Shown: positions 9,133-15,382 of the stretch, one piece after another
Numbering within the stretch: the first letter of the stretch is position 1
Layout of the letters: each line of letters starts with the position of its first letter
DNA from: a delta proteobacterium ML8_F1
GTDB lineage: Bacteria > Bacillota > Clostridia > Peptostreptococcales > Acidaminobacteraceae
Assembly: GCA_002029975.1 (NCBI GenBank)
Contig: LQBE01000011.1
Span: forward strand, 32,689 to 84,203
DNA: 51,515 bases
Direction: 5' to 3'
Position numbers and translations under genes: made by a program
Notes under the pieces: model-generated
What the model saw: only the letters and a program-made list of their open reading frames with translations
Told to the model about the DNA's origin: nothing
Database searches by the model: none

Positions 9133-10353
9133 ATGTTTAAATTTGTCCATATCGCCGATGTGCACTTTGATGCACCCTTGAGCGGAAAAAATCCTCAACT
9201 GCGCAAGGAACTCAAGCGCTCCCAGAGGGAAGCCTTCAGTAAAGTGATTGATTTCTCCCTCGCTGAGGAGGTTGACGGCCTCATCATTGCCGGGGATCTT
9301 TTCGACAACGAAAGAATTTCCCTTGAGACTGAAAAATTTCTGATGGAAAGTCTGAACCGCCTCAGGGAAAAGAATATTCACGTGTTCTACGCCCCCGGCA
9401 ATCACGATCCAGTGGTTCAGATGAAAATGAGGTTCGAGGATCACGTGCATATTTTTGACCGGGACATCCCTACGGAATATGTGATCAGGGACAAGAAGGA
9501 CCGGGAATGCCATATCCTGGGCGTGGGTCATATGAATGAAAAGGAGCACAGAAACCTGATCAGGAAGTTTCCCGGAAAAAAAGAAAACCACCCTGTGATT
9601 GGTGTTGCCCATACCATGGTGGAGAGTGTATCGAGTGATCCCCGAAAGGGGAAATATCTCCCCACCACCCTGGAGGACCTCCTGGAAAAGGACTATGACT
9701 ACTGGGCTCTGGGACACATCCATCAGGGGCAGCAGTTCAAGAACCACCCCATCTATTATTCAGGGACGATCCAGGGTCTTGATATTTCTGAAACGGGGAT
9801 GAAGGGAGGCAATCTCATCAAGTTGGGCAAGAACGGACTGGCAGTGGAATTCGTTCCCTTCAACACCCTTTATTTCCAACAGCTCAGCCTCGATATTTCA
9901 GGAGAATACTCCTCAGATTACGATTTTTACAACATCCTGAAGGGGATGATTTCCGAAGAGGTTGAAGGGGTGGAATTTCCCGCTTCAAAAACCCTCTACC
10001 GTGTTGAACTCACAGGAAGAACCAATCAGTGGCGGTATCTGAAAATCCCGGAAAACATTGCCTACATAGAGGCGGAAATGACCCGGGACTTGGGCTTTAA
10101 GAGCCTTGAGTTCAAGCTGTCCAAGGTACTGCCGCAAGTTGATTTCGAGGAACTGCTTGTGGACAACGGTATTCTGAAAGAGGTCATGACCTTGATAGCC
10201 TCGCCGGAAAACGATCCCAAGTTGACCAAAGCCATCAGACAGCTCAAAACCTTTGAGGGTCTGGAAACCCGGGATACCGCAGCAGTCCTCAAAGAAAGGG
10301 AAGAGGACCTGAAGAATCTGATGATGGCATATTTCGCAGGAGGACAATCATGA
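9133..10353 (+). CDS. yhaO: SbcD/YhaO-type metallophosphoesterase (DNA repair exonuclease subunit)
   Basis: 406 residues of the Mre11/SbcD-like calcineurin phosphoesterase family. Metal-binding motifs are present in order: D9-x-H11 (HIADVHFD), GDLFD at 54-58, GNHD at 89-92, then VAHTM and GHIHQG near residue ~195. The C-terminal third lacks recognised motifs. Its stop overlaps the start of the following ATPase gene by four bases (ATGA), so the two are translationally coupled. The pair matches B. subtilis YhaO-YhaN and the wider SbcDC/Mre11-Rad50 class of DNA end-processing nucleases. ATG start with GGAGG upstream. Confidence 0.88.
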   Translation: MFKFVHIADVHFDAPLSGKNPQLRKELKRSQREAFSKVIDFSLAEEVDGLIIAGDLFDNERISLETEKFLMESLNRLREKNIHVFYAPGNHDPVVQMKMRFEDHVHIFDRDIPTEYVIRDKKDRECHILGVGHMNEKEHRNLIRKFPGKKENHPVIGVAHTMVESVSSDPRKGKYLPTTLEDLLEKDYDYWALGHIHQGQQFKNHPIYYSGTIQGLDISETGMKGGNLIKLGKNGLAVEFVPFNTLYFQQLSLDISGEYSSDYDFYNILKGMISEEVEGVEFPASKTLYRVELTGRTNQWRYLKIPENIAYIEAEMTRDLGFKSLEFKLSKVLPQVDFEELLVDNGILKEVMTLIASPENDPKLTKAIRQLKTFEGLETRDTAAVLKEREEDLKNLMMAYFAGGQS

Positions 10354-12866
10354 AAATCAAGGAACTGATTCTGAATGAATATGGCAAATTCAGTACTCAG
10401 AAGATTATTAAACTGTCTGAAAACAGACCCAACCTGATTTACGGGAAGAACGAAGCGGGCAAGACCACCATGGTCAGTGCGCTGACAGAGTTGATTTTCG
10501 GCTTCAATCCCGTCAACCGGGAAAAACACCCTTATCTTCCCTGGGGCGGAGAACGTCTGAACATCACGATGGGTTACATTGACCAGGAGGGGGGACGGTT
10601 CAAGGTACGCAGACTCCTTTCCAACAATGTGAAGTCTACCCTTGAAGAGGGACTCGACATTAAAAATATCGGCAATGACAGCCTGCCCCAGGCGGAACAT
10701 CTGTCAAAAAACATTTACACCAATGTCTACCGGGTCAGTGCGGAGCAGCTGCGTGAGATTGAAACCAGGTCCTTCAGCGAGCTTCAGGACAAGCTCGTTC
10801 TCAACTACGGCAATGCCAATGTTTCTCCCAAGGAAGTGCTTCTGGGTCTGGAGGAGGATATCAAATCCCTCTACAATCCCCGAAGCCGGGCCAACAGGCA
10901 GAGAATCAATGAACTCATGGACCAGATCAACGGGCTCAAGAAAGAAAAACGGGACAAGGAAAGCCTTTACCAGGAAGTCCGGGTCATGGCCGAGGATATT
11001 GAAAGACTTGAAAAGGATATCCAGGGAATCGAACAAGACATCGTTGAAAAACTGCAGCTCAAGAACAAGGTGTCAAAGTATCTCAGTCCCCTGGAACTGA
11101 TAGAAAAAATTGAAAATCTGAAGGAGAATTTCCCGGGCTACGCCGATTATGAATCCCTTGAACCCGCAATTCTGAACCGGTTTGAAACGCTTGAGAGACA
11201 GCTCGGGGATTTTGAAAGGGCCCTGATGGAAGAAAAAGCTGTTATAAAGAATAAAGCGTCGAAAATGGAGGTCTTGACGGAGGAAGAGGCCAGAGCTCTT
11301 GAGCTTGAAGATCAGGTTGAAGCGATAGAGGAGCTTGAAGAGACACTGAGGGTTCAAAAGGACTATTCAAGGCAGATCAATGACAAGCTGCTGGAAAAGA
11401 CTGCGGCTGTGGCGGATTACGCCAATGGACTCTTTGTACAAGTAAAGGATGAAATTCCGGCCTTCAATCTCCAGGAGATCCAAACCCTCTTTTACCGTGC
11501 CAGGGAAATGGAGGAGGTCCAGGAAAAAAACTGGGTCAGCGGGTTCAAGCTGCTGGCTATTGTCGGCCTGCTGGCCTATGGGGTATGGCAGCAGAACTAC
11601 TATGGCCTTGGGGCCCTGGGTGTGGCTTTGATCCTGTTGGCAATGGATTATTTTGACCATCGCAAAAAGCGGCGCAATACCGCCCTTTCAGAGTTGAAGA
11701 ACAAGCTTGAAGAGCTGGGGGTGCAACGGGGCATATCCGAGAATTTCTCCCTGATGAACCTCAAGAATCTTGAGAACCTCAAGGATCTTGAAAAGGCTTT
11801 GGAAACCCTGAGGGGAAACAAGAAATTTCTGGAGACGAAGTTTCTGGAATCCCAGGAGAAACACCGGGAATTCTTTAAAGCTTTTGAGCAGATACGGGAT
11901 GCCAAGGGCTTGAATGCCCTTTTGTCTGAAGCGAAAACCAAAATCAAACTCAATGAACAGCTGCAGGAGGATCTTGACCGAAGACAGCAAACCCTTGAGA
12001 CCCTCAAAGAAAAGCGCCTCAGCGCTGCTAAAGAATTCGAAAGGCTTTCGGAGACCATCATGGGCTACGGCGGGGGATCTCTGGAAAAAGGAAAAAACAA
12101 TATTGAAAATTATTTCAGTACCCGGGAGCGGGTTGGCCACTATGAGCGGGAGCTCAGGGAAAGCCACCACCTGGAGAATCTTGAAAAGGACCTCGGCGGC
12201 ATGGAAAAGGAACTGATTACCGAGGAGTATCTTCATATTCTGGAAAACGATCTTCAGATTCTCGCCCAGGAGAAGCTTGAGAAGGCCAATCGCAATATCC
12301 AGCTCAAGACTGAAATCGACCATGTCATTTCAGGGGACACCCTGGATATCATCGAGGGAAAGCTCCTGGAAACCACGGAAAGCCTGAATCTGCTCACGAA
12401 GGAATACGACAATCTGGTGCTTTTTGAGACAATCCTCAAAAGAGCGGATGAAATATTCAGAGAAAAAAATCAGCCGGATGTCCTCAAGCTGGCCGGTGAA
12501 TACTTTGAGAGGATGACCCAGGGACGCTATAGCCATATCCTGATTGAGGATGACGAGAAAATGTACATCAAGGACCGCTTCGGAGAAGTGATTGGCGCCG
12601 ATGAGGAACTCAGCGCCGGGACTAGAAACCAGCTGTACCTCTCCTTCAGACTGGCTTTGATCCAGTATTTGGACCAGGGAAAGGAGAAACTTCCCCTGAT
12701 TCTTGATGAAGCCTTTTCCAACTGGGACGAAGGGCGGCTTGAGCCCACCCTGGAGTTGATACAGGCCATTGCCAGGGAACGCCAGGTTCTGATTTTTACC
12801 TGTAAAGAGAATAATCTCAGATATTTTGAAGCCTATCTGCCCCAAATAGAACGCACTGTGATTTGA
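10350..12866 (+). CDS. yhaN: YhaN-like SMC/Rad50-type ATPase
   Basis: 838 residues. Walker A is GKNEAGKTT at residues 32-40. Long coiled coils fill about 180-380 and 430-690, interrupted at about 390-430 by a hydrophobic segment (LLAIVGLLAYGVW ... LGVALILLAMDYF) that looks like one or two membrane helices. The C-terminal lobe has a signature-like LSAGTRNQL and Walker B LPLILDEAF. The membrane segment between coils distinguishes YhaN-type proteins from classical SbcC. It should form a complex with the preceding phosphoesterase in DNA end processing. Known for the family: SMC-like ATPase with nuclease partner; the physiological role is poorly defined. Confidence 0.85.
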   Translation: MKIKELILNEYGKFSTQKIIKLSENRPNLIYGKNEAGKTTMVSALTELIFGFNPVNREKHPYLPWGGERLNITMGYIDQEGGRFKVRRLLSNNVKSTLEEGLDIKNIGNDSLPQAEHLSKNIYTNVYRVSAEQLREIETRSFSELQDKLVLNYGNANVSPKEVLLGLEEDIKSLYNPRSRANRQRINELMDQINGLKKEKRDKESLYQEVRVMAEDIERLEKDIQGIEQDIVEKLQLKNKVSKYLSPLELIEKIENLKENFPGYADYESLEPAILNRFETLERQLGDFERALMEEKAVIKNKASKMEVLTEEEARALELEDQVEAIEELEETLRVQKDYSRQINDKLLEKTAAVADYANGLFVQVKDEIPAFNLQEIQTLFYRAREMEEVQEKNWVSGFKLLAIVGLLAYGVWQQNYYGLGALGVALILLAMDYFDHRKKRRNTALSELKNKLEELGVQRGISENFSLMNLKNLENLKDLEKALETLRGNKKFLETKFLESQEKHREFFKAFEQIRDAKGLNALLSEAKTKIKLNEQLQEDLDRRQQTLETLKEKRLSAAKEFERLSETIMGYGGGSLEKGKNNIENYFSTRERVGHYERELRESHHLENLEKDLGGMEKELITEEYLHILENDLQILAQEKLEKANRNIQLKTEIDHVISGDTLDIIEGKLLETTESLNLLTKEYDNLVLFETILKRADEIFREKNQPDVLKLAGEYFERMTQGRYSHILIEDDEKMYIKDRFGEVIGADEELSAGTRNQLYLSFRLALIQYLDQGKEKLPLILDEAFSNWDEGRLEPTLELIQAIARERQVLIFTCKENNLRYFEAYLPQIERTVI

Positions 12867-12880
12867 AGCGATGGGACCCA

Positions 12881-12909
12881 TTGACACGAACTTATGTTCG
12901 TGTTATATT
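12881..12909 (+). promoter_or_regulatory. Promoter with LexA (SOS) operator
   Basis: TTGACA (12881-12886) and TATATT (12904-12909) with a 17-base spacer. The spacer contains CGAACTTATGTTCG (12887-12900), an exact match to the Gram-positive LexA/DinR box pattern CGAAC-N4-GTTCG. It lies in a longer perfect palindrome, ACACGAACTTATGTTCGTGT (12884-12903). LexA bound here would block RNA polymerase. Confidence 0.85.
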
Positions 12910-12926
12910 TTTCCCAGGTGATTATT

Positions 12927-13187
12927 ATGAAGGTAGTGGCTAAACCCATTGAGGTAGTGGCCTGGTTCAATGACAAAGGAGGAATCCGACCGCTGAAGTT
13001 CAGGGTCATGGATGAGGAAGAGCCCCAGGTGGTCAAGGTGGACCGGATGGTTCATACCCACCTGGAGAAGTTTGCGGGCAATCCCATGCATGTTTTCGAC
13101 TGTCAGAGTACCGTTGAGGGTCAGACTAGAATCTATCAATTGAAATACGAAGTGGCCACTGGCCGGTGGATTTTGTTTAAGATCTAG
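12927..13187 (+). CDS. Small LexA-controlled protein, DUF6504-like
   Basis: 86 residues from the ATG at 12927, with AGGTGA five bases upstream and only about 10 bases of leader from the predicted transcription start. The pattern (WFNDKGGIRPLKFRV near the start, YQLKYEVATGRWILFKI at the end) resembles DUF6504. In other bacteria these small proteins sit beside SOS mutagenesis polymerases (ImuB/DinB). The family call is from memory and tentative. The SOS operator directly upstream supports a DNA damage role independently. No polymerase gene is adjacent, so it stands alone or is followed by the unknown gene at 13231. Confidence 0.65.
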   Translation: MKVVAKPIEVVAWFNDKGGIRPLKFRVMDEEEPQVVKVDRMVHTHLEKFAGNPMHVFDCQSTVEGQTRIYQLKYEVATGRWILFKI

Positions 13188-13230
13188 GCCTGGGAGGGTA
13201 TCTATAGACAAAGTGAGGAGGGGGTTCATT

Positions 13231-13710
13231 ATGACAGTCCGCTTTTTCTATGACTTCCGGGAGGATTTGATCAAGGATTTGACAGGCCATTTCAGTAAAG
13301 AGATTGAAGCCTATCGCCACAGCCAGGACCAGTTGCGCCAGATTGACGAGGCCCAGGCACTGATTCAAAAGTATTTTGACCAGTTTTTATCCCAGATGAG
13401 TGAGCTGATGCAGGCCACCCGGGACCAGGTCAGCTTTGATCAGGGTGAAGAGGTCATTGCCAAACTGGCAATCATGAATCATTATTTGAAATTCACCCGC
13501 AAGAATCTCTCCATTGAGGTAAAAATCGGTTACCATGTGCCGGAATTGAACCTTGTGGAGTCCCAGGTGTTGAGTTATATTGTGCCGGGGGACAAACGGG
13601 CCAAAATCAAACGGGTTGGCAAGGTCCATGACGGCAGCCATTTTGATGAAAATGCTTTGAATTATTATATGAGAGAAGCTTTTTCCAAGATTGAATTTTC
13701 CAGGGGTTAG
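13231..13710 (+). CDS. Hypothetical protein
   Basis: 159 residues from the ATG at 13231, preceded by GAGGAGGGGG. No family recognised. It is soluble and acidic-basic mixed, with a helical N-terminal half (EIEAYRHSQDQLRQIDEAQALIQKYFDQF) and a more beta-like C-terminal half (LSIEVKIGYHVPELNLVESQVLSYIVPGDKRAKIKRV). It lies 43 bases after the SOS-regulated small gene with no visible terminator between, so it could share that promoter. Twelve bases separate it from the MBL hydrolase gene, suggesting one operon. Confidence 0.7.
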   Translation: MTVRFFYDFREDLIKDLTGHFSKEIEAYRHSQDQLRQIDEAQALIQKYFDQFLSQMSELMQATRDQVSFDQGEEVIAKLAIMNHYLKFTRKNLSIEVKIGYHVPELNLVESQVLSYIVPGDKRAKIKRVGKVHDGSHFDENALNYYMREAFSKIEFSRG

Positions 13711-13722
13711 GAGGAGGTTTAT

Positions 13723-14403
13723 TTGAAAATTGAATATCTGGGTCATGCCGTGGTCCATATTGAGGACCAGGGGTTCAAGGGGATCATTGACCCTTTTTTA
13801 AAGGGGAATCCGGGGTGTTCCAGGTCTCCGGGGGATTTCAAGGAACTGGACTATATTTTTGTGACCCACGGCCACAGTGACCATATTGGCGACACCCTTG
13901 AGTTGGCAAGGGCCACCTCGGCAAAGGTGGTTGCCAATGCCGAAATTATCGACTACCTCAGAAAGCAGGGTCTTGAGAATCTGCATGCCATGCATATCGG
14001 CGGGAAATTCCAGACGGATTTTGGCTTCATTAAAATGACCCCCGCCCTGCATGGATCAGGAATCAGTCATCAGGGGGAGATGCTCTACGGAGGCAGTCCC
14101 GGCGGTTATCTGTTGAAAGTCCAGGGAAAAAAAATCTACCATGCCGGAGATACGGGACTGACGATGGATATGAAGCTCCTTGAAGAGGAAGCGGTTGACG
14201 TGGCGTTTCTTCCCATCGGAGGCAATTACACCATGGATATCGAGGATGCGGTTCGGGCGGTGTCTTTTATCAGACCCCGGGTGGTGATTCCCATCCATTA
14301 TGACACCTTCGAAGTCATTACAGCAGACCCTGAGGATTTCAAATGCCGGGTCAAAGACGCCGAGGTGGTGGTTCTATCCCCCGGGGCAACCTATGAACTC
14401 TAA
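13723..14403 (+). CDS. MBL-fold metal-dependent hydrolase (UPF0173 type)
   Basis: 226 residues beginning at TTG (AGGAGG eight to nine bases upstream). Metallo-beta-lactamase motifs are HGHSDH (residues ~47-52), the next His in HGSG, the Asp of HAGDTGL and the final His in PIHYDT. Length and motif spacing match the UPF0173 group (B. subtilis YtkL-like), whose substrate is unknown. The glycosyltransferase start overlaps its last codons. Confidence 0.85.
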   Translation: MKIEYLGHAVVHIEDQGFKGIIDPFLKGNPGCSRSPGDFKELDYIFVTHGHSDHIGDTLELARATSAKVVANAEIIDYLRKQGLENLHAMHIGGKFQTDFGFIKMTPALHGSGISHQGEMLYGGSPGGYLLKVQGKKIYHAGDTGLTMDMKLLEEEAVDVAFLPIGGNYTMDIEDAVRAVSFIRPRVVIPIHYDTFEVITADPEDFKCRVKDAEVVVLSPGATYEL

Positions 14404-15382
14404 AGAGAGGGTCGCAGGTTCCGGGGAAAGGATTCATGTTGCCTTGGTGGCAAATGACAGCTATCTGCCCCACGCCGGGGTTGTGATGGCGTCAATTCTT
14501 GAAAATTCAGCAGTCCCGGAGAGATTTGTCTTTTATATCCTGTGTGATCAAACAAGTGAACTGAACCATCACAGACTTGAGGAACTCTCAAGAAAGTATG
14601 CCTGTCAAATCCATAGTCTTGCAGTGAGCAGCAGTGGCTACGGGGACCTTGTCCAGATAGGACATCTGATAACCACCACTTATCTGAAGTTCGCCTTGCC
14701 TCAGAGGCTTCCCCCGGAGGTGGGGAAGGTGATATACATTGATTCGGACATCATTGTGCTCGGTGACCTCAGTGAACTGTGGAATATTGATCTGGGAAGC
14801 AGTGCTCTGGGGGCGGTTGACGACCCCTACTGCAACTACAAGAGACAGGACCTGCAGATTTCAGATGGCTACAGGTATTTCAATTCCGGTTTGATGCTAA
14901 TGAATCTGGAAGTTTTCAGGGAAGAGGCTTTGGGGGAAAAACTCAGGGAGTTTATCCGGGAAAATTCGCAGATTATCGAATTCGCTGACCAGGACGCCTT
15001 CAACGCCCTGCTCTTTGACAGGCGTCTTTCTCTGCCCCTGAAGTGGAATGTGCTGACTTATTTCTATGATGTGGATGAACTTGGACAGTCGGTTCCGGCA
15101 GGTGAACTTCAGCCATACATTGAAGCGGTGCAGGCCCCCGGTGCTGTTCATTTTTGCGGGCCGCGCAAGCCTTGGCACTATCTGAGCAGCCACCCGCAGA
15201 GAGAACTGTATCAAAGGTATCTGGAACTGACCCCGTGGAAGGGGACAAAAGCCGAGGGGAGGCATTTGGGGAGTGTTCTGGCCAGGCCTGTCATCAGCAA
15301 CCAGCGACTCAAGAAAATGGCGCAGGCCGTGATTTCCGAGGCGGGAATCACATCACTGAAGAACTGGCTTAGAATCCCGTAA
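14393..15382 (+). CDS. Family 8 glycosyltransferase (LgtC/GspA-like)
   Basis: About 329 residues if started at the ATG at 14393, which overlaps the end of the MBL gene (translational coupling; no good ribosome site). The GT8 DxD motif is DSD at residues 117-119 (VIYIDSDIIVLGDL), followed by NSGLMLMNL and a C-terminal HFCGPRKPWHY. Members transfer hexoses from UDP-sugars onto surface glycans or glycogenin-like acceptors; the acceptor is unknown. An isolated GT8 gene next to an MBL hydrolase gives no pathway clue. Confidence 0.85.
   Translation: MNSKERVAGSGERIHVALVANDSYLPHAGVVMASILENSAVPERFVFYILCDQTSELNHHRLEELSRKYACQIHSLAVSSSGYGDLVQIGHLITTTYLKFALPQRLPPEVGKVIYIDSDIIVLGDLSELWNIDLGSSALGAVDDPYCNYKRQDLQISDGYRYFNSGLMLMNLEVFREEALGEKLREFIRENSQIIEFADQDAFNALLFDRRLSLPLKWNVLTYFYDVDELGQSVPAGELQPYIEAVQAPGAVHFCGPRKPWHYLSSHPQRELYQRYLELTPWKGTKAEGRHLGSVLARPVISNQRLKKMAQAVISEAGITSLKNWLRIP

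Follow-up and report, generated by a model that had tools for sequence, protein, structure and literature searches.

A LexA-boxed gene for a small protein remotely related to ImuB-C, set apart from a Y-family polymerase in a clostridial genome

The locus and its LexA-type operator

The window, the whole stretch of 51,515 nucleotides analysed here, contains an 86-codon gene with its own promoter and a predicted LexA operator, preceded by a YhaO/YhaN-like gene pair and followed by two further genes on the same strand. These features, and a polymerase gene elsewhere in the same genome, are as follows.

9133–10353, + strand: YhaO/SbcD-like phosphoesterase, context gene (domain search; the name YhaO is that of the first-pass annotation)
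10350–12866, + strand: YhaN/Rad50-like ATPase, context gene, ending 14 bases before the promoter (domain search)
12881–12909, + strand: sigma-A type promoter TTGACA-17-TATATT, 11/12 consensus matches
12887–12900, + strand: predicted LexA operator (pattern counts; box upstream of most orthologues not behind a polymerase)
12916–12921, + strand: probable ribosome-binding site AGGTGA, read from the sequence
12927–13187, + strand: ImuB-C/DUF6504-like protein, 86 residues, all-beta model (profile comparison, predicted structure, family census)
13231–13710, + strand: conserved 159-residue protein, probably on the transcript of the 86-codon gene (homologue behind the gene in related loci)
13723–14403, + strand: metal-dependent hydrolase with a metallo-beta-lactamase fold (PRK00685 type), probably cotranscribed
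Genome G000, contig C14, 152523–153758, − strand: Y-family polymerase with its own LexA box, a one-mismatch operator-type site upstream

The −35 hexamer TTGACA (12881–12886) and the −10 hexamer TATATT (12904–12909) flank a 17-bp spacer that is occupied by the operator CGAACTTATGTTCG, whose palindrome reaches out to ACACGAAC/GTTCGTGT (12884–12903). A promoter scan of positions 12700–14500 returned six sites against 2.0 expected, and the top score is this promoter. Its exact pattern occurs once in the window, and three times at up to one mismatch against a shuffle mean of 0.26. The perfect operator pattern CGAACN4GTTCG is likewise found once, against 0.00 in 100 shuffles; at up to two mismatches the window holds 8 sites against 14.6 expected, so near-matches there carry no meaning. 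Transcription would start near 12916, giving a leader of about 11 bases. A same-genus relative (L017) keeps the operator arms and both hexamers, with the central four bases changed from TTAT to GAAA. Coordinates, promoter scan and shuffles agree, and confirm that the operator between the two promoter boxes and the 86-codon gene are real as the first-pass annotation described them.

Across the 2.38-Mb genome (2,376,371 bases), the perfect operator pattern occurs only at the 86-codon gene and a reversed control pattern occurs six times, so neither a perfect match nor its uniqueness proves anything alone. At up to one mismatch there are 19 operator-type sites against 107 for the reversed control. 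Fifteen of the 19 were inspected: four lie upstream of SOS-type genes (the 86-codon gene, recA, the Y-family polymerase, and lexA, whose site also serves a LysM gene in divergent orientation), nine fall within long open reading frames (ORFs), one is upstream of another gene (L007) and one has no long ORF (L011). The weight of CGAACTTATGTTCG therefore comes from the one-mismatch sites before lexA, recA and the Y-family polymerase; the operator of the 86-codon gene matches in type those of lexA and recA in the same genome, a feature of a LexA regulon. The gene divergent from lexA (L014:1208-1489) shares one common LexA box with it, and we take it to be a LysM-domain gene resembling YneA, encoded by yneA in Bacillus.

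Remote kinship of the small protein with ImuB-C

The 86-residue protein has no significant match in Pfam, NCBIfam or the solved-structure set; a sequence search of the latter gave one chance-level match (E 9.5), and PHROGs gave a weak one (E 0.025). The first-pass annotation had likened the product to DUF6504. The DUF6504 model itself (PF20114, cut-off 24.2 bits) matches neither the window protein in hmmscan nor anything in its genome, and is absent among the 24 Pfam families matched by any of 49 family members at E ≤ 1. The cut-off thus rules out straightforward Pfam membership, and what stands of the likeness is a remote homology at the profile level. When the 49 members are compared by hhalign with 14 aligned DUF6504 proteins (out of 20 fetched loci), they match over nearly the full length (95.4%, P 1.8e-8). 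A narrower clostridial alignment reaches 94.7% and one led by the Deinococcus deserti protein 95.6%. A reversed profile gives 0.1%, and none of 50 column-shuffled profiles exceeds 4.1%. Scored against the DUF6504 alignment, the window protein obtains 19.8 bits, with 1000 shuffles at or below 8.1. In the opposite direction, the D. deserti protein obtains just 0.9 bits from the clostridial profile, a value reached by 4 of 1000 shuffles, and pairwise BLAST finds no similarity between these two proteins. The comparisons support a DUF6504 kinship that is remote and confined to the profile level.

The predicted structure of the window protein (pLDDT 90.8) consists of seven strands, with no helix reaching four residues. 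A fold search of the PDB with this model returned no match at E ≤ 0.001. Its best VIA-align partner is a cystatin (Z 6.2, rmsd 2.8, 67 residues aligned), at a level that may reflect just a shared arrangement. ImuB-C, for its part, is described as a beta-barrel without close PDB relatives (PMC12926913), and the superfamily as defined in PMC3765255 has a highly conserved C-terminal tryptophan. In the alignment of our 49 members, W81 is invariant.

The link between DUF6504 and ImuB-C is made through D. deserti, where a gene with the DUF6504 annotation is flanked by a Y-family polymerase gene and dnaE, behind lexA. The published operon is named lexA-imuY-imuB-C-dnaE2, and its 80-residue product is a stand-alone ImuB-C (PMC8072749). 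We equated the two by gene order and length, and on this match DUF6504 corresponds to the ImuB-C superfamily. The window protein combines profile homology to this superfamily with 86 mainly beta residues, the conserved W81, a genetic link to mutagenic polymerases and predicted SOS control through LexA boxes, and we regard it as very probably an ImuB-C-type polymerase partner.

Several apparent fusions were set aside. The long ORFs with DUF6504 matches in L220–L223, and a 339-residue ORF in L103, look like out-of-frame extensions. An Azospirillum polymerase taken as a possible ImuB has no ImuB-C domain and is read as not ImuB.

Association with a Y-family polymerase

A search of named genomes from Clostridia and their kin gave thirteen related loci, and 83 of 391 sampled Clostridia genomes contain a family match (71 at 56 bits or more). 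In a sample of 398 genomes from the phylum, the DUF6504 model has matches in 95, and all 95 listed lie outside the window's class. Among 20 DUF6504 loci of the phylum, six have a Y-family-like ORF directly upstream, and in five of these six a LexA-type box with up to one mismatch lies over 1 kb before the match, at the polymerase start; the other 14 have no Y-family-like ORF at threshold within about 1.5 kb. Two further features of the clostridial family were noted. One is a distant branch of about 95 residues (VDVICEHK..G.IIPL.FR) found in one bacterial family (L140, L142-L146, L148 and L150), several members of which have LexA-type boxes with one or two mismatches. The other is a relative (G806) with four copies of the family gene (L268 and L280-L282), the three lower-scoring ones with one-mismatch LexA boxes.

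The position of the gene relative to a polymerase was surveyed from 104 matches in 103 loci (the window, 13 named-genome loci and 89 class-sample loci). Polymerases were located with the genome's own two Y-family proteins, and the 200 bases upstream were scored for boxes. Eighteen matches below 60 bits, the broken L028 and L078, which is truncated by a contig end, were dropped, leaving 84. In 44 of these the family gene follows, on the same strand and within 600 bases, a polymerase closest to the C14 type, which bears out the link to SOS polymerases drawn earlier from DUF6504 elsewhere. None of these 44 genes has its own LexA box at up to two mismatches, versus 33 of the remaining 40 (27 at up to one mismatch), a contrast with a Fisher p of 1.6e-12 that ignores relatedness. 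Four control patterns (the reversed one and three other palindromes) give 0–1 loci per group at up to one mismatch and 0–5 at up to two. The seven of the 40 without a nearby box all show a site of up to one mismatch 231–685 bases upstream. A polymerase lies on the other side of the gene in six of the 40, downstream on the same strand in L026, L121 and L123 and convergent in L074, L120 and L122. In 38 of the 44 loci a box of up to two mismatches is found near the start of the polymerase, and that in L091 looks fortuitous; of the other six, three start at a contig end and three are long extended ORFs outside the scan coverage. A background count over other ORFs (50 of 442 at up to one mismatch, 65 at up to two) was set aside because it includes the polymerases themselves and overlapping ORFs. 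The LexA control proposed at the outset is thus also predicted for the family, since most orthologues not behind a polymerase retain a box upstream.

When the two arrangements are mapped onto a tree of the 84 proteins, 15 changes are required (14–16 in bootstraps), at least five of which are forced by well-supported branches, in a tree with few columns and several long branches. Arrangement differs within five supported, independent pairs; on average the box follows in the same direction in 3.7 of the five, and in none is it opposite. A sign test on these pairs is not significant (best p 0.0625), so they are too few to correct for relatedness and the operator contrast stays uncorrected.

The window's own genome contains the expected counterpart. 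The first-pass annotation advised a search for polymerase homologues elsewhere in the genome, and the C14 polymerase, of the type found ahead of the family gene in the 44 loci, has its own LexA box. This protein ends in GGVSEEDYLMMSSIL, behind a motif resembling the start of the genome's own RecA; in the longer end ...RALDRQIDTLRLRYGKDIIQRSVFLHKKVKPLIGGVSEEDYLMMSSIL, the first part resembles by eye the RecA start ALDSVISQIERQFGKGSIMR. A RecA-like motif in such polymerases has been described (PMC6511836). The earlier suggestion that the small protein acts independently of its neighbours is not supported, as the genome carries this polymerase of the partner type with its LexA box, and the genes around the small gene recur in relatives. 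The small protein looks instead like a partner supplied from another locus.

These polymerases have a common C-terminal tail, …GG…DYPMMSSIL. A profile of the last 120 polymerase residues (19 rows, 18 from family loci and one from the C14 polymerase) was run over the same 391 Clostridia genomes, of which 245 matched; the counts cover the 133 genomes listed. Among these 133, tail and family (at the strict score) occur together in 65, the tail alone in one (G372), the family alone in two (G011 and G160) and neither in 65. Four family genomes fall outside the listed matches, with weaker polymerase matches in G098, G285 and G328 and none in G003. Among the matches listed, and with a profile drawn almost entirely from family loci, the tail is nearly confined to genomes with the family. 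By a cruder reading rule, the tail is present in 17 of 21 polymerases (20 chosen plus the genome's own) from genomes with the gene elsewhere; L214, among the four without it, comes from a genome whose family matches are all weak. In 20 polymerases picked from genomes lacking a strict match, the same rule finds a single tail, which is clearly different. In polymerases from loci with the gene it finds 38 tails among 53 and misses several evident ones. Very weak relatives of the small protein (L189:1642-1974 and L193:1566-1811) lie directly behind two of the 20 polymerases from genomes scored as lacking the family, and absence of the family may accordingly be overcounted.

The conserved tail is a candidate docking site for the small protein. 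YqjH homologues not linked to YolD are described as having generally variable or missing tails (PMC6511836), and on the accessible text of that study a conserved tail that tracks ImuB-C is apparently undescribed. In the published YqjW-YqjX model, the tail makes no contact to the small subunit (PMC12926913, accessible text).

Proposed role, alternatives and relation to known systems

We consider it likely that the 86-codon gene encodes a stand-alone ImuB-C-type accessory subunit under LexA control, which joins the C14 polymerase for lesion bypass. LexA would occlude the promoter of the gene until, upon DNA damage, RecA filaments trigger LexA cleavage. The small protein would then be made together with RecA and the C14 polymerase, and would join the latter, most likely through the conserved C-terminal tail beside the RecA-like motif. 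There it could position or license the polymerase for lesion bypass with RecA, as UmuD' does with UmuC. The operators, homology, co-occurrence and neighbourhoods are observed in the sequences; LexA binding, induction, complex formation and an effect on mutagenesis are what we infer from them.

The neighbouring genes bear on two other readings. They were surveyed in relatives (39 matches in 61 genomes), of which 33 loci, including the window, were examined; the other six were not refetched or are fragments, and four of the 33 repeat L017, L021, L024 and L027. In 13 of the 33, a same-strand YhaN-like gene precedes the family gene, so the repair context seen in the YhaO/YhaN pair recurs; in nine, counting the window, the ImuB-C-like gene is followed by the metal-dependent hydrolase. 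This association could mean that the protein is not a polymerase subunit at all, and serves as a damage-recognition or DNA-binding factor guiding several repair enzymes (the polymerase, the YhaO/YhaN nuclease and the hydrolase). Such a role was proposed for ImuB-C in PMC3765255, which also places ImuB-C genes beside Ku, ligase and photolyase genes. However, the recurrent class-wide partner is the polymerase that precedes the gene in more than half of the loci surveyed, the family tracks the polymerase tail, and among the loci examined YhaN-like neighbours are confined to the window's own bacterial family; we judge the repair-guide role improbable.

Downstream, a homologue of the 159-residue gene follows in eight of the 33 loci, including the window, and the conserved order supports a predicted shared transcript with the 86-codon gene, which the first-pass annotation had allowed for the gene at 13231. 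The gaps at 13188–13230 and 13711–13722 contain no terminator-like site; the three such sites in the region (1.9 expected) are the operator palindrome and two weak ones inside the end of the 86-codon gene. For the 159-residue protein, Pfam gives nothing above its cut-off and NCBIfam nothing at all, and its predicted model is of low confidence (pLDDT 40). The hydrolase is a candidate SOS gene. A similar hydrolase gene adjoins a polymerase in L191 and L192, the former under the PRK00685 cut-off. With its order kept in relatives, the putative SOS operon of ImuB-C-like protein, 159-residue protein and hydrolase might form a separate repair or signalling module whose polymerase link is ancestral only. 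We hold this to be less probable still, because the genome retains the tailed, LexA-boxed polymerase, and a polymerase lies convergent within 1 kb of the family gene in five loci of the same bacterial family (L259, L260, L262, L263 and L265). The last arrangement suggests an origin of the separate locus in a polymerase-linked one.

A YolD/UmuD-type manager protein, which would occupy the same gene-order place as a small SOS gene with a Y-family polymerase and has a precedent in the separate LexA-sited yolD and uvrX homologues of S. aureus (PMC6511836), is very hard to reconcile with the data, as the YolD model (PF08863) matches neither the window protein nor anything in its genome, and YolD and strict-score family matches share one of 391 genomes against 7.6 expected. 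YolD is present in 5 of the 12 genomes with weak family matches only. In L148 (3812-4276), a weak family member is preceded in frame by a sequence that resembles a YolD N terminus; its 59 residues gave no Pfam match.

An ImuB-C-type subunit for the C14 polymerase, the reading we prefer, belongs to a known kind. Stand-alone ImuB-C proteins (DUF6504, PF20114), such as GSU0042 of Geobacter sulfurreducens and Deide_1p01890 of D. deserti (PMC3765255, PMC8072749), share with the window protein a length of about 80 residues, an all-beta fold, a tryptophan near the C terminus and a link to Y-family polymerases and LexA. Unlike them, the window protein is too divergent for the Pfam model, its gene is separate from the polymerase with its own LexA box, and its family goes with a clostridial polymerase without an evident DnaE2. 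The genome's two alpha-subunit genes (ORFs of 1150 and 1419 residues) are read from their lengths as DnaE1 and PolC, so no DnaE2 is evident.

The closest precedent is the coupling of ImuB-C to clostridial YqjH-like polymerases, reported with a proposed joint action of polymerase, RecA and ImuB-C (Timinskas and Venclovas 2019, PMC6511836). This is apparently the same association in the same bacterial class; the coupling, in the accessible text, is one of gene neighbourhood without separate LexA-boxed copies or a conserved tail. UmuD'/UmuC (Pol V) and YolD/UvrX likewise pair a small SOS subunit with a Y-family polymerase bearing a RecA-like motif and a tail (PMC6511836). ImuB-C is reported to lack the SH3 barrel of UmuD' and YqjX (PMC12926913); the window protein has no sequence match to YolD, and its family and YolD occur mostly in different genomes. 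The association of polymerase and ImuB-C is thus in essence already predicted. What appears new is the genomic arrangement, an ImuB-C-type gene apart from its polymerase with its own LexA box: in the accessible text of studies on ImuB-C and Clostridia we found neither such separate copies nor the conserved tail described.

A wider reading, which we put forward tentatively as somewhat less likely than not to hold in full, is that a whole SOS polymerase branch in Clostridia is run by a Pfam-invisible ImuB-C family that docks beside the RecA-like motif, on the ...GG...DYPMMSSIL tail. Polymerase and partner gene would have been repeatedly split, each split copy keeping or gaining its own LexA operator, and in the window's bacterial family the split copy would head an SOS operon, with the 159-residue protein and the hydrolase, beside YhaO/YhaN. 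If so, lesion bypass and end processing would be induced as one module. On the narrower and likelier reading, the family is a two-gene version of ImuB-C plus polymerase, found at the 56-bit threshold in 71 of the 391 sampled Clostridia genomes. With the short polymerase tail named as the likely contact, the role of ImuB-C would become testable through one small gene or about 15 residues.
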